The position numbers and the translations under genes are program-made. A stretch of DNA of 64,000 nucleotides from Pedobacter psychrophilus (GTDB lineage: Bacteria > Bacteroidota > Bacteroidia > Sphingobacteriales > Sphingobacteriaceae). Positions 5,904 to 13,714 of this stretch are shown piece after piece. The notes beneath the pieces were generated by a model that was not told the DNA's origin, ran no database searches, and saw nothing but the letters and a program-made list of their open reading frames with translations. Location of the stretch: contig NZ_LWHJ01000027.1 in the NCBI RefSeq assembly GCF_001652725.1, forward strand, positions 248,001 to 312,000. Direction: 5' to 3'. Every line of letters starts with the position of its first letter. Position 1 is the first letter of the stretch.

Positions 5904-6734
5904 CTATTTCACTTTGAAATTGAAAACGATGGTACCGATTTGGGTGTCTGGTGCGGATTCTAATGTATTAAACCTTGAACCCAAAGCTGCATTTTCACAT
6001 TTATCCCAAAGTGTTGGATCGGTCAAAGTTGTACCACGTCCGCCTGCTTTTGCACTTGTAACCACACCGTTTTTATCAACCCTTATTTCTACTACAATCT
6101 TACCAGATTTTTGTCCATCATCTTTAATTGATGGTAAATTCACAAATCTTCTGCTCTTCAGCGATAGTGCCAGACCACCATTTCCAGAACCAGTTCCATC
6201 ATAATTATCACTTAAAGGATCACCCTCCGGTTTACCTTGATTTCCAGCAACATTTCCATTTCCATCGCCAGTTCCTGTTCCTTTATTTTTGTTGCCTTTG
6301 TAAAGTGCGTTTTGATTAATTACTGGAGCTTTTGGTTTGTCTTCCGTTTTTTGAGTAGGAGCTGTTTTCGTAGCGTTAGCTTTGGTATTCAAACTAACTG
6401 CATCAGAATTATCATCTGTTACAATGTTATTATCAGTGTTTGCGGCTTGTGTATTTTGAGTTACTTCTTCGTTTGGAGTGATTTTATCAGGTGCTTTACC
6501 ATTTGCATTTGGATCGACAGAAGGTTCATCTACGCTCATGTAATCATTTCCCATTCCTTCCTCAGAAGTTCCGTAATTAACAATAATTCCACCAACTCCA
6601 ACTTCTTCAGGAATCTCGGCTTTGCTCACAATATAAAAAATGCTTAATAATAATAAAGCCACTAAAATCCCCACCGAAATAGCAATGGCTTTTGGATAAT
6701 TATTCTCAGAATTTTTATAGTTTAACGCAATCAT
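5904..6734 (-). CDS. TonB-like energy transducer
   Basis: Predicted inner-membrane-anchored periplasmic protein that passes proton-motive-force energy from an ExbB/ExbD motor to an outer-membrane partner. Of its 276 residues, about 15-37 form a single transmembrane helix. A long low-complexity linker rich in Asn, Thr, Pro, Gly and Lys follows, ending in an SLKSRRFV segment. The C-terminal 70 residues (KIVVEIRVDKNGVVTSAKAG through GSRFNTLESAPDTQIGTIVFNFKVK) fit the TonB C-terminal domain. The ATG overlaps the exbD stop by four bases, indicating translational coupling. It is the last gene of a six-gene operon that also encodes an outer-membrane barrel, the likely partner. Confidence 0.85.
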   Translation of the reverse strand: MIALNYKNSENNYPKAIAISVGILVALLLLSIFYIVSKAEIPEEVGVGGIIVNYGTSEEGMGNDYMSVDEPSVDPNANGKAPDKITPNEEVTQNTQAANTDNNIVTDDNSDAVSLNTKANATKTAPTQKTEDKPKAPVINQNALYKGNKNKGTGTGDGNGNVAGNQGKPEGDPLSDNYDGTGSGNGGLALSLKSRRFVNLPSIKDDGQKSGKIVVEIRVDKNGVVTSAKAGGRGTTLTDPTLWDKCENAALGSRFNTLESAPDTQIGTIVFNFKVK

Positions 6735-7129
6735 TTTTGAGGTTCTGTTGCCAGCACTAATTTAATTTTAAGCTTATTGGCAATATCCGTTAAGCTAACT
6801 ACATTTTGAATTGCTATACTATTATCTGCATAAAGAATAACGGTTAAATCTGGATTTGCTTGTTGATAAGTTGCAATTTTTTGTTCTAAAGCTGCAAAAG
6901 GAACTTGATCTTTCTCTACATAATATAGCAGATCTTTTGTAATAGAAACGTTAATCGTTTTTTGTGGCGATGCTTGTCCGCTGCTAGAACGTGGTAAGAA
7001 TAACTTCACCACATTAGGATTCACAACGGCTGAAGCCAATAGAAAAAACAACAGCAAGAAAAACATAATATCGTTTAACGCCGATGTATGTACTTCTACA
7101 TGTGGTCTAGCTCTCTTCCTTAAATTCAT
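6731..7129 (-). CDS. exbD: ExbD/TolR-family biopolymer transport protein
   Basis: Rotor component of a proton-driven ExbB-ExbD motor in the inner membrane. The 132 residues comprise a short cytoplasmic N-terminus, one transmembrane helix (about 21-37) and a small periplasmic domain. Asp20, just before the helix (SALNDIMFFLLLFFLL), aligns with the essential membrane-embedded aspartate of ExbD/TolR. The periplasmic part contains the typical NVSITKDLLYYVEKDQVPF and LTVILYADNSIAIQNVVSL stretches. The start overlaps the exbB stop by four bases and the stop overlaps the TonB-like start by four, so the three are translated as one unit. Confidence 0.93.
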   Translation of the reverse strand: MNLRKRARPHVEVHTSALNDIMFFLLLFFLLASAVVNPNVVKLFLPRSSSGQASPQKTINVSITKDLLYYVEKDQVPFAALEQKIATYQQANPDLTVILYADNSIAIQNVVSLTDIANKLKIKLVLATEPQK

Positions 7130-7830
7130 CGTCCTGGTTCTTCTAATAAATCAATAAATTCAATCGTATCGGTTTCCATCTTTAAAATTACTTTATCAAC
7201 CATAGTGGTTAAAATATTATAAAGAATATATGCGATGATACCGATAATTAATCCTGAGGCAGATGAAATCATTTTTACATATAAACCGCCAGAAATTGTT
7301 CCAATTTCGATGACTCCTTTTACAGAAACATCATGAAAAATAGTGATTACCCCAATAATTGTCCCAACGAAACCAAGCATTGGCGCTATTCCGGCAATAA
7401 CACCCAAAATACCTATGTTACTTTCCAGTTTAGAAACTTCCAATCTTCCAACGTTTTCAATCGCTCCTTCAATATCCTTTATCGGGCGACCAATTCTTAA
7501 CAAACCTTTTTGTAACATGCGGCCAAGAGGAGTATTGCTACTTTTACAAATAGCTATCGCTGAATCTAGATTTCCAGTTTTAATGCTAGATTTTACCTGC
7601 ATTGATAGTTGAGACTCGTCTTTATTTGCTTTTCTAATGGTTAAATATCTTTCGAAGAATATGATTAAAGCTAATAAGGCTAAAATTGCTAATGGTATCA
7701 TTACCCAACCTCCCTTTGTTAATAATTCAAATAAGCTTAACTCTTGATTTGGAGAAGCTTGTAAAGCTGAAATTGCATTGCTAGCAGTATCAGCTAAAGG
7801 TTGTAAGGCAGTAGTATCTTGTAAAAACAT
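7126..7830 (-). CDS. exbB: ExbB/MotA/TolQ-family proton channel protein
   Basis: Stator component of the ExbB-ExbD-TonB motor, 234 residues, with the family's three transmembrane helices: about 36-56 (GGWVMIPLAILALLALIIFFERYL), about 138-160 (IGILGVIAGIAPMLGFVGTIIGVITIF) and about 180-205. The GFVGTIIGV and GGLYVKMISSASGLIIGIIAY stretches are the conserved channel-lining helices. The N-terminal 30 residues are periplasmic in the usual topology. It sits eight bases downstream of the HU/SPOR gene in the envelope operon. TolQ would be an alternative name, since the partner genes do not separate Ton-type from Tol-type function. Confidence 0.93.
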   Translation of the reverse strand: MFLQDTTALQPLADTASNAISALQASPNQELSLFELLTKGGWVMIPLAILALLALIIFFERYLTIRKANKDESQLSMQVKSSIKTGNLDSAIAICKSSNTPLGRMLQKGLLRIGRPIKDIEGAIENVGRLEVSKLESNIGILGVIAGIAPMLGFVGTIIGVITIFHDVSVKGVIEIGTISGGLYVKMISSASGLIIGIIAYILYNILTTMVDKVILKMETDTIEFIDLLEEPGR

Positions 7831-7838
7831 GAATTATA

Positions 7839-8900
7839 TTATTTTAAAATTTTATAAGCTTTTTTATAAGCTTCTGGATTAATTTCTTTTCTTATTCTTT
7901 GTAATTCTTTTTCAGCTTCTTCATCATTATAAAGTGTGGCACCGCTAATTTTAACCATTGGTCCATCTTTATCATCTAAAATGTAGGCGTTGATTTCATA
8001 GTTTTTTAATTGCTTAACTCTTTCTTTAGCCTCATCCTTTGACATATATAAGCCAATGATAATCTCATACCTAAAATCACCTTTTTTAGGGATAATTTTA
8101 CTACTTACAGAAACATCAGTAGAGTCTCTTGGCTTTTCAACATCAAAACCTTGAGATTTAAGTTTGTTTTCAATATCATCAGTTCCCTTACTATTATAGA
8201 TGGAATCAGCTTTTTGCAAATCTTGCTTATTTGCTTGTACTACTGCAGGGTTATTATCTTTTTTAGGATTGATATTAAAGTTTGTAGTTTGTATATTATT
8301 GATCAAATTTTTATATAAATCGGGCTTAGCAAAATATAATCCTACTGCGGTAGCAATGATGGCAACCGCTACAATCATCAAAATTAAGCTTGTTATGCTT
8401 CTCTTTTCTCTTTCCTCAACATAATCTGAAGGCATTGCTGTACTCATTGCCTGTTGCGCTAAACTATAAGTTTCAACTTCGCTTCCTATTAATGATGGAG
8501 ATTGGGTATCTATTGAAGGTAAGCCAAAATAGGATTTATTTAAAGTTTCTGATTTGGCTGAATCTAATTTTAATTTTCCCTCTAAAGATGATAATTTACC
8601 TACCCCATTTATTTCTACATCATCAGTTTTTAAAGAATTTTTAATATCTCTCACATATTCATCTAATATTGCATAAGCAGATGTAAGGGAGGTATCACTT
8701 TTTTGACTAATTAGATGAACTAATTTATCATCATGTAAATAATCTGTAGAAAAATCTATTTTGTTGGATGGTGGATAATAAATCTTTGTATCATCATCAT
8801 AAAAACCAGCAGATCTTTTTTTGAAAAACCTACCTAAACCAGGTATAATTACCTGATCTTTTTGGGTGAGTAATGATAAGAAATAAGGTGCTATATCCAT
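7839..8900 (-). CDS. HU-CCDC81-like / SPOR domain membrane protein
   Basis: 353 residues with three parts. Residues 1 to about 125 resemble the two tandem HU/IHF-fold domains seen in Bacteroidota HU-CCDC81 proteins (MDIAPYFLSLLTQKDQVIIPGLGRF, then IKNSLKTDDVEINGVGKLSS). Residues about 169-190 are one transmembrane helix (SLILMIVAVAIIATAVGLYF). The C-terminus, about 275-350, is a SPOR-like domain (RYEIIIGLYMSKDEAKERVKQL onward), a fold that binds peptidoglycan lacking stem peptides, commonly at division sites. The topology implied is a cytoplasmic HU-like domain tethered to a periplasmic cell-wall-binding domain. It lies between the barrel gene and exbB in the operon. Whether the HU-like part binds DNA or protein is unknown. 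Confidence 0.85.
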   Translation of the reverse strand: MDIAPYFLSLLTQKDQVIIPGLGRFFKKRSAGFYDDDTKIYYPPSNKIDFSTDYLHDDKLVHLISQKSDTSLTSAYAILDEYVRDIKNSLKTDDVEINGVGKLSSLEGKLKLDSAKSETLNKSYFGLPSIDTQSPSLIGSEVETYSLAQQAMSTAMPSDYVEEREKRSITSLILMIVAVAIIATAVGLYFAKPDLYKNLINNIQTTNFNINPKKDNNPAVVQANKQDLQKADSIYNSKGTDDIENKLKSQGFDVEKPRDSTDVSVSSKIIPKKGDFRYEIIIGLYMSKDEAKERVKQLKNYEINAYILDDKDGPMVKISGATLYNDEEAEKELQRIRKEINPEAYKKAYKILK

Positions 8901-8946
8901 TTTAGCGTAAATGTAATTATTTAGTATTACCGATTAAAAAGAAAAA

Positions 8947-10686
8947 CTAAAATCCATATCGTAATCCACCTAGAATATTGATTCCGTAATTAGGATAATA
9001 AGGCATTCTTTCATACTCATTACCTAAAACATTATTAACCCTAAAAAATCCTGATATCTGATTGTTATATTGATATTCAGCACCAATACTAATATCGGCG
9101 AAAGCCTTAATCGTTTTAACCGATGCAACTATTGTAGGAGTTGGGGGAGCAGGAGTTACGATAGGCGCAAAATCAAAAATCTTAGCTTTTGTTTCTCCTT
9201 GGAAAAGTAAATCGCCGGAAATTTTTACCTTATCTACAATTTTAAAAGAAGCAGTAGATGTTAATATAAAACTGGGTCTTAACCATGCAAACTGCTCAGT
9301 TTTTATATCGTATTGTTTAATCTGTACTTTACTATCTAATTTAAAATCATCAGAAAAGCTCACATTTAGCTCTCCATCAAAACCAAGAATATTGGTGTTT
9401 CCTGCAAAATAAGATACATTAAATTTTTGTTTGGTATTAATATCGTTAACGTAGTAACTTAAATCTGAAATAGTTTGGTAATTAACCATTGCTTTATAAC
9501 CAACATTTGGAGCTACCGTACCTCTAATGCCACCCGCAACGTCTAATTTTTTTACACTATTTCTAAGATCAACGTTTTGATTTAGGTAAGGATTTACATC
9601 CGATAAATTCTTAATTAAAGTTTTATCTACATCGCCACCCAAATTCCCGAAAATGGTTAAATAATTTTTTATCAGCATAAAATCTAAACTGGCAGCTGGG
9701 AAGATGTTAATCCTTTGATTTGCACCAAATTCATTTGCGTAATTAACACCTCCTGTAAACCTAAACCTATCTGTTTTAAATTGGATATATGGATTTAACT
9801 TAAATAAGTTATTGTTAAAACTGTAAGATAAATCTTTACTAGTGGTAATATCAACAATGGCATTTGCACCTAAATGAAACTTGTTTAAATCTTTTCCTAA
9901 CCCGCCAGAAACAATCACTGATGTTTCTTTTGCTTCGAAAGCATTATTGAATATGGAGGCGTTAATTTTTGCAGCATAATCAAAGTTAGTTTCTTCATCT
10001 GCATCATTTCTGTTTAATACCACACCTTCAGCTTCAAAATAGTTAAATTTTTGCTTTTCAGGATTTAGATTGGTGAATGTTCCTTGTGGATCTTGACCGT
10101 AAAAATAGGTGCTGGTTCTATCGTAGCTTAGCTTACCTTCTAAAACCAAAGCATCGCCAATACTTCTACCATAACCTCCAAAACTTTGTTTACTGATTTT
10201 TTGCTCATTCAATTTACCGCTCATCCCTAAATGATTAAAATTGAAACCAGCTTGTAAAGCTTCATCTTGTCCGGTTGCTATATTAAGTTGTGCTAGAGTA
10301 GTACCTAAATTACCCAATGCCAATTTTGCAAAGTTGTTTTTAAGTTCTTCTTGTTTAAGTTTGACCAACTTTTGAGCTTCTAATTCCCTAATCCCGCTAT
10401 TCAATTCCAATCTTTTATCCATTAAGCTATAAGTGATTTTGGGATTAAAAGGCCTAATATCATTTAAATTGGGACTTCTTCTAATTTTAACAGCATCGGC
10501 TAAAACAGGTCTGTAAGATCTAACCACTTCAACCTCTTCAGTAACTGAGGTTTTAGAGGTATCTCTTGAAACGGTTGTTTTTGTTGGAACAGTTTTTTCT
10601 GCAGGTTGAGTTTGTGCGTATAATGCATTGCTAGCAAATAAACCCGATAAAATTAAAAAACTTGCTTTGTATATATGCTTAGTCAT
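8947..10686 (-). CDS. Outer-membrane beta-barrel protein, TonB-dependent-receptor-like
   Basis: A 579-residue exported protein with a Sec signal peptide (hydrophobic stretch ending SNALYAQ). The mature N-terminus holds a conserved-looking segment, TEEVEVVRSYRPVLADAVKI, then about 60 charged helical residues. The remaining 430 residues alternate as amphipathic strands and end in GGLRYGF, with the terminal Phe expected of outer-membrane barrels. It is annotated-like to TonB-dependent receptors, but I see no standard plug domain, and it is shorter than most such receptors. The ATG at 10686 is four bases after the upstream stop; the in-frame TTG at 10704 overlaps that gene and is unlikely. A motor-driven envelope role is inferred from the operon. 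Confidence 0.8.
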   Translation of the reverse strand: MTKHIYKASFLILSGLFASNALYAQTQPAEKTVPTKTTVSRDTSKTSVTEEVEVVRSYRPVLADAVKIRRSPNLNDIRPFNPKITYSLMDKRLELNSGIRELEAQKLVKLKQEELKNNFAKLALGNLGTTLAQLNIATGQDEALQAGFNFNHLGMSGKLNEQKISKQSFGGYGRSIGDALVLEGKLSYDRTSTYFYGQDPQGTFTNLNPEKQKFNYFEAEGVVLNRNDADEETNFDYAAKINASIFNNAFEAKETSVIVSGGLGKDLNKFHLGANAIVDITTSKDLSYSFNNNLFKLNPYIQFKTDRFRFTGGVNYANEFGANQRINIFPAASLDFMLIKNYLTIFGNLGGDVDKTLIKNLSDVNPYLNQNVDLRNSVKKLDVAGGIRGTVAPNVGYKAMVNYQTISDLSYYVNDINTKQKFNVSYFAGNTNILGFDGELNVSFSDDFKLDSKVQIKQYDIKTEQFAWLRPSFILTSTASFKIVDKVKISGDLLFQGETKAKIFDFAPIVTPAPPTPTIVASVKTIKAFADISIGAEYQYNNQISGFFRVNNVLGNEYERMPYYPNYGINILGGLRYGF

Positions 10687-10690
10687 GTTC

Positions 10691-13600
10691 TTATTTAGTA
10701 TCAAGGTCCTTTAATTTTTGTTTTGCAGTAGGTAAAATTTCATCATCGCCCTCATAATTATCAATTACAGATTTTAGGGTAGCAATAGCTTGTACTTTAT
10801 CTTTTTGTGCTACATAATTATCTGCCAATAAAATGAAAGTTTTTGCGAACCAATAATCATAATTTGGCATATTGTTTACCAAATCAAAACAAGTTTTTTG
10901 GGAGGTTTTATAATCCTTTTTAAGATATTGGATTTCGGCAACGTTATACAATGCTTCTGCTCCAATAATAGATTTAGTTGCTTTTGCTACTTCTTCTAAT
11001 TGCTTTCTTCCTTTTGTGGTATCTCCTTGTAATAAAAAAGCTTTACCACCATATAAACCAGCTTTAAATTTATCTTCCTCAGAAGATTTTTCATAATTTT
11101 TAACCAAGTCTACATAAAGCAAAGTTTGGTCTGGCACTTTAATTCCTGCATACGCAACCATTAAATTATTGATTGCAAAAGAATAGTTTGCTTTATATTC
11201 TGATGCAATTTCCAATTTTTTCAGATGGACAATTGCTTCGTTATACTGTTTATTGTTGAGGTAAATTTTGGAAATACTTATCAAAGCTTTCTCTGTATAT
11301 TCACTTGTCCAATCGTTTAAGATATATTCATAATCAATAATAGCTGGAGCAAATTTGCCGAGGTTTTTATAACTTTCTGCTCTTATAAATTTTGCTTGTT
11401 TGTCTTTTATGGCTTTAGGAAATTTATCAAAATAAGCATTTACCGATTCTACTGCTCCATCCCAATTTCCTTTAATGTATTGAGTGTTTGCCGCTTGAAA
11501 CATGATATTATCTTGTTCAGATGTTGTGTAATTTCCTATAGAAGTAGTATTGGCGTAATCTATAAAATCAGTTGCATTGCCCATATCCAAATAAATCTTT
11601 TGGATTAGTTTTAAAGCTTGTTGTGCTTCATCTGTAGATTTATATTCTGAAACAACTCTTTTAAAAGTTTCTAATGCCACCTGATCATTTTTTTGATCAT
11701 AATTAACTAATCCAATAGTTACCAATGCTCTTGGGATATAAGAACTGCGAGGATATTTGGCAACAAAATTTGTTAAGTCTGCTTTTGCGATATCACCTTG
11801 TCCCATTAAAAAATAGGTATAAGGTATTTCAAAACCTGCATCATCAGAATAATTAGAATTAGGAAATTTGCTTAAAAGCGATTTTAAAGTGGCAATTTTT
11901 GCATCAGGTTGGTTTTGTAAACCTTGTATAATTCCGCGTTGAAATAACGCATAATCTTCGCTAGTACCACCTTCAGAAATAATTTGATTGTAGTAATTTA
12001 ATGCACTACCATAATTTTTAGCACCAAAATAAGCATCAGCTAATCTTAATGTCGCATCTTTTATTGTTTTAGCGTCTTTCTCGTTTCCGTTTAAAAACCT
12101 TGCAAGATAGGTTGCGGCTTTTGGATAGCTTTCTCCCTCTAAAGCTGCATATCCCAAAGCATAATTCGCAAAATTAAATAGATCTGTTTTTTTTGCGGCA
12201 GGCATTGCTAAAAAAGTCTCGAAATAATTAACTGATTCCCCATATTTTCTTACCTCATACATGGCTTCCGCACACCAATAAGTAGATAAAGCCAAAATAT
12301 CTTTATCAATAGGATAATTGTTAGACTTTAAAAATAGACCAATCGAATTTTCAAAAGCTCTTTCATTATAAAACTCTAATGCCCTAAAATAGGTCACTTT
12401 TTGATAAGCCTCTTTGGCGTCTGCCGATTTATTTTCTATACCCTCTAACACATCAATAGCATCACGATAGTTTTTTGTGCTGGATAAAGATTTAGCCAAT
12501 AGTGTTTTAGCTTCAGTTAATTTTTTAGTACGAGGATAATCTTTTAAATATTTCTGTATCGCATCTAATGCAATTGAATTGAATTGTAATTCGTATGAAA
12601 GTTTAGCGAAATTGAATAAAGCATCTTCCTTAATTTCTCTATCAAAATCTAATGATGAACTTACTTGTAAAACATTTCTGGCCGCTCTTTTATCTTGTTT
12701 AGTTAAATAAGCATCTCCTAAAGTATATAATCCGTATTGGCTGTAATCAGATTTATCGTTGATTAATTTCCCTAACTGCGCAATAGATTCGTTATATTTT
12801 TTAAGTTTATAATAGGTGTAACCAATTTGATAGCTATCCTGGTTGTTTTGAGTTTTACCATTATCACGTTTCATAAAACGCTCATAATAGGCTGACGCAT
12901 TTGTATAATCTTGCTTAGCAAAATAAGAAGCGGCAATGATACGCAGCATCTCAGTTTCATTTAGCTGTTTAGTGTTTTCAATAATTGGTACTGCGTATGC
13001 AATTACATCATCATATCTTTTATCTAAAAAATAAATGGCAGAGATATAATAAGGATAACTTTCTTTATAATTTTCAGAGTTTTTTAGTTTTTCAAAGTTT
13101 TTTAAAGCAATAGGGTATTCTTTATCAACATAAGCAATGTAGGCGTAATAATAAGTGGCTTGTTCGCTATATTTAGAACCATCGTCTTTTACAATACCGA
13201 ATAATGGTTTTGCACTAGCATAATCTTTGGTCTCAAAAAATGAATAAGCAGTTTTGAATTTATATTCTGTATCATCCTTACCAGTTAAATCTATCGAGCT
13301 AACTTTTGTAAACCAATTTAAGGCTTCCTGATAATTGCCTTGGTTAAAATAATATTTACCAAATTGAAAATAAGCTTGTTTAGATTTTGGACTTTCTGGA
13401 TGGTTTTTTACAAATCTTTTAAAAAGTTGTTCTGCATCATCATTCCCTAATTCTAAAGCACAAACGGCTCTATAAAACTCGCTATTAACCTTTAAATTTG
13501 AAGTGAAAGTATTATTGAAAGATTGTGGCGTTTGTATGTTCTTATCATTTTCTACCTCATAAAATAAGGAAGAGGCAGCTGCATATTTTTCTTGTTCATA

Positions 13601-13714
13601 TAATTCTGTTGCTTGTTTATATTTTGAATTAATATCAAAATAAGCAGGCAATTGGGCAAAAAGTATATCAGATGAAATAAAAAATAAGGCAGTGACAGTG
13701 ATTATTTTTCGCAT
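10691..13714 (-). CDS. Large periplasmic tetratricopeptide-repeat protein
   Basis: 1007 residues with a Sec signal peptide (MRKIITVTALFFISSDILFAQ). Nearly all of the mature protein consists of 34-residue helix-turn-helix TPR units, recognisable by recurrent A/Y-x2-G-x3-Y-x6-A-x4-F patterns such as YFQFGKYYFNQGNYQEALNW and YQIGYTYYKLKKYNESIA. There is no membrane helix and no lipobox, so it is probably periplasmic, with a scaffolding role. It is the first gene of the six-gene operon and is followed after four bases by the outer-membrane barrel gene, suggesting that the two products form a complex. No enzymatic motif is seen. Confidence 0.85.
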   Translation of the reverse strand: MRKIITVTALFFISSDILFAQLPAYFDINSKYKQATELYEQEKYAAASSLFYEVENDKNIQTPQSFNNTFTSNLKVNSEFYRAVCALELGNDDAEQLFKRFVKNHPESPKSKQAYFQFGKYYFNQGNYQEALNWFTKVSSIDLTGKDDTEYKFKTAYSFFETKDYASAKPLFGIVKDDGSKYSEQATYYYAYIAYVDKEYPIALKNFEKLKNSENYKESYPYYISAIYFLDKRYDDVIAYAVPIIENTKQLNETEMLRIIAASYFAKQDYTNASAYYERFMKRDNGKTQNNQDSYQIGYTYYKLKKYNESIAQLGKLINDKSDYSQYGLYTLGDAYLTKQDKRAARNVLQVSSSLDFDREIKEDALFNFAKLSYELQFNSIALDAIQKYLKDYPRTKKLTEAKTLLAKSLSSTKNYRDAIDVLEGIENKSADAKEAYQKVTYFRALEFYNERAFENSIGLFLKSNNYPIDKDILALSTYWCAEAMYEVRKYGESVNYFETFLAMPAAKKTDLFNFANYALGYAALEGESYPKAATYLARFLNGNEKDAKTIKDATLRLADAYFGAKNYGSALNYYNQIISEGGTSEDYALFQRGIIQGLQNQPDAKIATLKSLLSKFPNSNYSDDAGFEIPYTYFLMGQGDIAKADLTNFVAKYPRSSYIPRALVTIGLVNYDQKNDQVALETFKRVVSEYKSTDEAQQALKLIQKIYLDMGNATDFIDYANTTSIGNYTTSEQDNIMFQAANTQYIKGNWDGAVESVNAYFDKFPKAIKDKQAKFIRAESYKNLGKFAPAIIDYEYILNDWTSEYTEKALISISKIYLNNKQYNEAIVHLKKLEIASEYKANYSFAINNLMVAYAGIKVPDQTLLYVDLVKNYEKSSEEDKFKAGLYGGKAFLLQGDTTKGRKQLEEVAKATKSIIGAEALYNVAEIQYLKKDYKTSQKTCFDLVNNMPNYDYWFAKTFILLADNYVAQKDKVQAIATLKSVIDNYEGDDEILPTAKQKLKDLDTK

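Follow-up and report, generated by a model that had tools for sequence, protein, structure and literature searches.

A conserved envelope module of the Bacteroidota with a Ton-type motor, a plugless transporter-type barrel and a large TPR protein

What might a Ton-type motor do when it is encoded beside a large tetratricopeptide repeat (TPR) protein and an outer-membrane barrel in which no plug can be recognised? The question is raised by a locus of Pedobacter psychrophilus (NCBI RefSeq assembly GCF_001652725.1, contig NZ_LWHJ01000027.1), which we analyzed in a stretch of 64,000 nucleotides (positions 248,001 to 312,000 of the forward strand; hereafter the window). Six open reading frames (ORFs) on the minus strand span positions 5904-13714 of the window and encode, in order of transcription, the TPR protein, the barrel, a protein with HU-like and SPOR domains, ExbB, ExbD and a TonB-like protein. 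All six of the close-packed envelope genes named in a preliminary description of this DNA are present. Its wording that they are tightly spaced or overlapping fits gaps that run from -4 to 46 bases (+4, +46, +8, -4 and -4 in transcription order) but has to be amended for the TPR and barrel genes, which lie 4 bases apart and do not overlap, since a leader-like ATG at 10686 is preferred to an upstream TTG. We are fairly confident that the six genes represent a conserved and ancient module, its order found phylum-wide, in which a Ton-type motor accompanies a plugless barrel of the transporter type that bears a TonB-box-like tail.

The distribution of the module was assessed in 296 genomes sampled evenly across the phylum, 73 of them from the window's class, and in an order sample of 121 genomes. 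A TPR profile at E<=1e-80 matched 202 of the 296 phylum genomes and 72 of the 73 class genomes. Single-protein searches recovered the barrel in 81 of the 296, including 72 of the 73 in the class, while a barrel profile at E<=1e-10 matched 222 of the 296, a figure in which weak matches may be other receptors; within the order, each genome holds one strong barrel match (121/121). We then mapped gene order at 71 class loci, the window excluded, and found the TPR gene adjacent in 69, the HU/SPOR gene in 25, ExbB in 16, ExbD in 16, the TonB-like gene in 17 and all six genes together in 15. One of the two TPR misses is truly adjacent (G168, where the ORF was called too long) and the other truly apart (G172); a stray weak locus without a barrel (L095 of G236) was excluded from the counts. 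The full six-gene set is present in all six further loci of the window's family (f1). Among 34 loci of other families outside the class, picked from strong barrel matches rather than at random, the corresponding numbers were 17 for TPR, 24 for HU/SPOR, 24 for ExbB, 24 for ExbD, 32 for the TonB-like gene and 5 for all six. The TPR-barrel pair is therefore near-universal in the class, and the complete six-gene order turns up in families that lie far apart in the phylum, so that it is not confined to a few close strains, the outcome at which the preliminary description would have fallen. Chance adjacency was rejected on the same grounds. A shorter arrangement was also seen, in loci L161, L166, L171, L174, L175, L177 and L178 (families f22, f24, f32 and f48), which carry TPR, barrel, another protein and the TonB-like protein with no adjacent ExbB or ExbD; in L177 the protein between the barrel and the TonB-like protein matches the HU/SPOR profile.

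The ORF of the barrel begins with a TTG (10704), and the better start, the leader-like ATG, gives a protein of 579 residues (8947..10686, minus strand). It matched no Pfam family over cut-off and gave no Plug match. Residues 17-116 show no confident structure in an AF2 model built from 32 sequences (mean pLDDT of 77.7), which forms about 22-24 long strands from residue 119 onwards. Among solved structures the model comes closest to TonB-dependent transporters such as FhuA, BtuB and Fiu (lowest Foldseek E 9.3e-17), the top four by VIA-align having Z of 20.7-21.0 and rmsd of 3.4-3.6 with 400-445 residues aligned. Searched against the PDB, the sequence profile of the barrel matched part of a receptor C-terminal barrel (E 2.9e-9, profile positions 415-525 of 548). 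From the model and these matches we are fairly confident that the barrel is of transporter descent and plugless as far as the tools used can see. The preliminary description had named an ordinary nutrient receptor as the identity at odds with its reading; a plug-bearing receptor of that kind was rejected, as no plug was found and residues 17-116 lack confident structure.

Within these residues lies a TonB-box-like tail (barrel residues 49-75; 10462..10542, minus strand; pLDDT under 50) with the extended motif EEVEVVRSYRPVLADAVKIRRSPNL. Across 37 non-identical f1 sequences the tail holds 3.70 bits per column, compared with a barrel mean of 2.80 and 3.26 in the best 27-residue window of the barrel; residues 20-45 hold 0.99 bits per column. 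Seven repeats had been removed from 44 sequences for this calculation, and an earlier count that included them agrees. In f1, no 27-residue window of the barrel protein is more conserved than this tail, although it lacks confident structure. The sequence LPEFVITG, or a near form, is the N-terminal tail in 17 of the 34 barrels outside the class, drawn from 10 of 16 families, and class-specific forms include TETVTVTKAYTPTISDAFKI in f4 as well as the motif of the window. The strict pattern behind these counts (LPEFVITG-type) was composed after the tails had been inspected, as was a looser core. From the sequence, the tail is probably a retained TonB box, and its motif is longer than such a box, which suggests a second binding partner.

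The same tail was found joined to a TPR protein. An order-wide search returned 14 genomes with a second match to the barrel tail, located in a frame of 844-875 residues, 13 of them in genus g2 and one in genus g6; a fourteenth g2 genome (G001) came from the phylum-sample search, bringing the total to 14 of 20 g2 genomes plus the one in g6. All 15 fusion loci (L089 3703-6309 (-), L090 5959-8493 (+) and L319-L331) were inspected, and each encodes an N-truncated TPR paralogue, of 842-872 residues as called, with a signal-peptide-like start and the barrel tail, for example DSIEIVRDYRPMLADAVKIRRSPDM. In these genes of about 850 codons the tail replaces the first ~250 TPR residues: the paralogues score 741-815 bits to the TPR profile, and in 14 of the 15 the match begins at profile position 243-250. 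The L090 fusion shares 45% identity with the TPR protein of the window (762 aligned positions), and between its tail and the window barrel the match has an E of 7e-12. The strict tail pattern caught six of the 15 fusions, the remaining nine carrying the same tail with small changes as judged by eye. Evolution has thus joined tail and TPR, which fits a shared function of the two, although a fusion does not in itself demonstrate contact.

The TPR protein of the window (1007 residues; 10691..13714, minus strand) matches several Pfam TPR models over cut-off and has a signal-peptide-like start without a Cys. Its AF2 model is an all-helical TPR array (mean pLDDT 90.3, pTM 0.46), for which a search of solved structures gave, among the 50 matches listed, just general long helical-repeat proteins and no TPR-barrel exporter. 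It passes the NCBIfam tol_pal_ybgF cut-off and a BamD cut-off too. Neither the TPR protein nor the barrel has a specific family in Pfam or NCBIfam; a TPR gene of the f11 type is present in named Bacteroides and Phocaeicola records. The HU-CCDC81/transmembrane/SPOR protein (353 residues; 7839..8900, minus strand) has an HU part at residues 6-125, a membrane helix at about 169-192, the single membrane segment seen by eye, and a SPOR domain at 246-307. HU-CCDC81_bac_1 and SPOR are both over cut-off, with HU-CCDC81_bac_2 under it (31.2 vs 35 bits), which bears out its earlier characterisation as a membrane protein that joins an HU-like to a SPOR domain. A SPOR match over cut-off together with a membrane anchor places it among the SPOR proteins, and its glycan binding is predicted. 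SPOR domains recognise denuded, septum-enriched glycan, according to the part of the literature consulted (PMC6895207).

Of the motor proteins, ExbB (234 residues; 7126..7830, minus strand) matches MotA_ExbB (PF01618, 9.2e-22) and ExbD (132 residues; 6731..7129, minus strand) matches PF02472 (2.6e-24), both over cut-off. ExbD has the membrane-helix Asp (SALNDIMFF), which was recovered by pattern in 43 of 46 loci, the other three showing an Asp in a variant context. The last gene (276 residues; 5904..6734, minus strand) encodes an N-terminal membrane helix, a long linker and a TonB-type C-terminal part (~195-276). It has no Pfam match and just weak NCBIfam matches, none over a curated cut-off (AgmX/PglI C-terminal, 0.0026; TonB C-terminal, 0.073). 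We therefore call it TonB-like rather than TonB, a label supported by its layout and by orthologues, many of which, in distant families, end in a TonB-type C-terminus recognisable by eye. In a maximum-likelihood tree of 84 ExbB-type sequences, the ExbBs encoded in class operons form a supported group (99/95), to which each of the ten class genomes tested that have a split operon contributes exactly one ExbB (10/10). Ten other ExbBs, including the only other PF01618 protein of the window's genome, formed a separate group (94/99) and four more a third, while E. coli TolQ and ExbB grouped apart with four TolQ proteins of family f17 (100/100). Long branches were flagged and deep branches are partly open, so that the tree backs orthology within the class better than the deep order.

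Two of the split operons retain traces of the intact arrangement. In G250 (f4) and G164 (f7) the split-off motor lies in an ExbB-ExbD-TonB-folC cluster (folC assigned over the NCBIfam cut-off in G250 and by eye in G164), the layout in G187 (f4) being different, and a folC-family gene follows the intact operon in ten mapped loci. On this comparison of gene neighbourhoods, the operon was probably cut in two in G250 and G164. Loci L302 and L303, with folC after the split-off motor, suggest a single break between the HU/SPOR gene and ExbB. On the other side of the operon, pyrB and pyrR lie upstream, as they do in six of the mapped f1 loci. Predicted promoters and terminators were about as numerous as in shuffled sequence (43 vs a mean of 40.7; 5 vs 4.6). 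The other motor cluster of the window's genome (L311 3958-6884) consists of ExbB-ExbD-ExbD plus another membrane protein, similar in size to TonB, a layout shared by tonB2 of Riemerella anatipestifer as reported in the part of the source consulted (PMC4446302).

On balance, we favour a model in which the Ton-type motor pulls on the barrel tail while the TPR and SPOR parts serve as scaffold and wall anchor. The six proteins would form a trans-envelope machine of the Ton class, with ExbB and ExbD as the proton-driven motor and the TonB-like protein carrying force across the periplasm, where it would pair with the TonB-box-like tail by beta-strand addition. The barrel to which this tail belongs presumably descends from TonB-dependent transporters and has lost its plug. 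The TPR superhelix would lie below the barrel and engage the extended conserved part of the tail, and the HU/SPOR protein would link the assembly both to denuded (septal) peptidoglycan and to the inner membrane. A pull on the tail would not unplug a nutrient pore; it would move or load the unit of barrel and TPR protein and so couple outer membrane, cell wall and motor. The recurring gene order, the transporter-type barrel with no plug found, the box-like tail and its conservation, the tail-TPR fusions, the ExbB of the operon clade kept in all ten split-operon genomes tested and the joint loss in G382 described below speak for this model. We infer all of its physical contacts, which way the force acts and what the machine is for; it is compatible with a purpose like that of Tol-Pal or with a powered channel, and these readings overlap.

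Several observations weigh against the model. The strict tail pattern is missed by 17 of the 34 barrels outside the class, of which 15 loci (f21, f23, f42 and f50) have INPQDIEIRSEF or a similar tail and the other two (f19 and f33) have different ones. It occurs in one of 30 plug-bearing receptors from six genomes, and the looser core lies just before the plug in 17 of the 30, most of which carry, as read by eye, a box such as 'lsevvvtatr'; the conserved stretch of the tail also exceeds the length of a TonB box. The gene set is not constant: HU/SPOR adjoins in just 25 of the 71 class loci, and the TPR gene of f23 lies elsewhere in the genome with the barrel-to-TonB part intact (12/12 loci). 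The single-contig genome G382 (f2) has no TPR match at E<=1e-20, a barrel match of only 1.5e-12 and no ExbB of the operon type, its second PF01618 match scoring 8.3 bits vs 250-276 in two relatives; TPR, barrel and this ExbB type appear to have been lost together, which favours the model, but at least one lineage can thus do without the set. Nor are the motor residues uniform. At the columns of E. coli ExbB T148/E176/T181 the window protein has T/V/S, the first Thr being kept in all rows read (after six divergent ExbB rows had been dropped), and 13 of 14 f1 rows have V, T, I or Q in the Glu column; the operon ExbBs outside the class are T/E/T in 22 of 24. The membrane helix of the TonB-like protein in f1 is without the His. 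From these residues, coupling may differ in the window's family, where ExbB mostly lacks the Glu and the second Thr.

The motor type is apparently also not exclusive to the module. The R. anatipestifer tonB1 operon encodes an ExbB of 24 kDa, one ExbD of 14.7 kDa and a TonB of 30.6 kDa (PMC4446302, consulted in part), and the f3 locus encodes proteins of 234, 132 and 293 residues, to which tonB1 is likened by size and gene number, not by sequence. According to the same portion of that report, tonB1 could be deleted, a tonB1 tonB2 double mutant lost hemin transport, tonB3 could not be deleted, and in E. coli the TonB1 complex was able to energise a hemin receptor. By this analogy, the motor type can drive ordinary receptors, at least where its genes lie outside the operon, which speaks against strict dedication. 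What stands of the dedicated motor in the preliminary description is a Ton-type motor in a conserved envelope module, without the strict dedication. An ordinary nutrient Ton system, in which another protein would supply the plug and the motor would serve many receptors, could claim this hemin receptor as well as the fold of the barrel, which is that of nutrient receptors, but we regard it as very improbable: one strong barrel match in every one of the 121 order genomes is unlike a niche-specific receptor, and the window's genome has its separate ExbB-ExbD-ExbD cluster.

Whether the module is a functional counterpart of Tol-Pal, holding the outer membrane to the wall and driving its invagination at division, is a further question, and one that the preliminary description had raised as a possibility. 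We regard this as a tentative possibility, and with similar reserve we consider that the TPR protein would stand for CpoB, the SPOR domain would act as septal locator and the barrel-TPR unit would take the place of TolB-Pal. In favour of the earlier proposal is a distribution inverse to that of full-length TolB, with the qualification that the pattern rests on a single clade. Near-full-length TolB was found in 63 of the 296 genomes, all in f17 (63 of 64), and the TPR protein in 202, none in f17; by these criteria no genome has both. TIGR02800 at E<=0.001 matches all 296 genomes, mostly in part, and TolB was counted only if near-full-length; 59 of the 63 are over the curated cut-off and four just under, and G391 (f37) was left out, as it passes only through the summed pieces of a 278-residue frame. 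In f17, in contrast to the remainder of the phylum sample, tolQ-, tolA-, tolB- and ybgF-like genes are clustered in all four loci read (L180-L183), with tolR and pal in three of the four; in L181 all six Tol-Pal genes were confirmed by domains or NCBIfam models, with TolQ, Pal and YbgF over NCBIfam cut-offs. The window's genome has no full-length TolB match. A 2025 study, in the portion consulted, reports no identifiable tol-pal loci in Bacteroidetes (PMC12204202); Chlorobi are named among the phyla with tol-pal in a 2020 review, likewise consulted in part (PMC7391070). The tol_pal_ybgF match of the TPR protein and the binding of SPOR domains to denuded, septum-enriched glycan point in the same direction.

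Against such a counterpart, the inverse pattern falls in one clade and hence counts as few events, and 31 of the 296 genomes have neither the TPR protein nor near-full-length TolB. At E<=1e-20 some of these 31 (in f36 and f47) have divergent long TPR matches, whereas six of seven f28 genomes and all of f37 have none; that line is near background, as one of six f17 genomes crosses it through its ybgF-like gene. The TolB_N domain alone (PF04052, E<=0.001) occurs in 19 of the 296 genomes, eight of which also have the TPR protein, and most of the frames concerned differ from TolB in size. The operon has no Pal- or TolB-like gene among its six, and its ExbB lies outside the TolQ group of the tree: the window ExbB scores 69.6 bits to TolQ, more than its ExbB scores, but far below the 221-bit NCBIfam cut-off that an f17 TolQ exceeds. 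Outright membership of Tol-Pal was rejected on these two grounds. The ybgF match may be generic, the TPR protein being over the BamD cut-off too, Riemerella tonB1 is dispensable (PMC4446302), and PorE is a published rival in the part of the 2025 study consulted (PMC12204202). In the most specific form of the proposal, a TonB-driven tether with a plugless barrel, rather than Tol-Pal, would hold and constrict the outer membrane of Bacteroidota: the motor would pull a disordered TonB-box tail clamped by the TPR superhelix, and the HU/SPOR protein would locate the unit at the septum and may touch the chromosome. We think this detailed version unlikely.

A powered channel, in which the open barrel and the TPR superhelix would move a polymer, lipoprotein or protein across the outer membrane, is doubtful. 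The PgaA, BcsC and AlgK/AlgE exporters pair a TPR scaffold with a plugless barrel, which is the layout seen here, and an open barrel of this size would be expected to leak unless occupied. The TonB-dependent transporter Oar is needed for PopC secretion, as described in the part of the source consulted (PMC6434023). However, no recurring synthase or cargo gene was recognised in the neighbourhood maps, where most neighbours were not profile-searched, and the 50 listed structural matches of the TPR protein include no TPR-barrel exporter. A place in the BAM complex was rejected by comparison of descriptions: none of the added subunits of Flavobacterium johnsoniae, BamG, BamH, BamM and BamP, is described as a TPR-plugless-barrel pair in the portion of the report consulted (PMC12611786).

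We recognised no description of the six-gene set in searches of the openly licensed PMC literature, which does not prove it unrecorded. In Bacteroidota, which abound in the human gut, a near-universal module linked to a motor is a concrete candidate for coupling inner-membrane energy to the outer membrane without tol-pal. Were export its true function, it would be a phylum-wide powered outer-membrane channel, and were the tether correct, a barrel derived from a receptor would have been turned from a pore into a mechanical anchor. Either purpose would give a role to TPR and barrel genes that have no specific Pfam or NCBIfam family.

Among known systems, PgaA, BcsC and AlgK/AlgE share with the module a TPR scaffold and a plugless barrel, and differ from it in that the operon barrel is of the transporter type with a TonB-box-like tail and a motor and that no polymer synthase was recognised nearby. 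The Ton system resembles it in its motor families, TonB-type C-terminus, transporter-type barrel and TonB-box-like tail; unlike that system, the operon has no plug that we found, includes an HU/SPOR protein and a TPR protein of some 1000 residues, and has an ExbB that stands apart from the nutrient ExbB. With Tol-Pal the module has in common a motor driven by the proton motive force and a force transducer, a TPR protein, a cell-wall-binding part and near-universal presence in a clade, whereas it lacks TolB and Pal, and at the outer membrane its partner would be a barrel that carries a TonB-box-like tail. The von Willebrand A transducers encoded beside tolQ/tolR-like and TPR genes likewise place a TPR gene next to a motor of the same type, but there the transducer is a von Willebrand A protein, and no barrel is mentioned in the portion of the study consulted (PMC12204202). 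PorE, in the same portion of that study (PMC12204202), is proposed as a tether between outer membrane and peptidoglycan for the same gap in Bacteroidetes; it is one lipoprotein that fuses CpoB-, TolB-, carboxypeptidase- and Pal-like parts, whereas the operon described here is a six-gene set linked to a motor.

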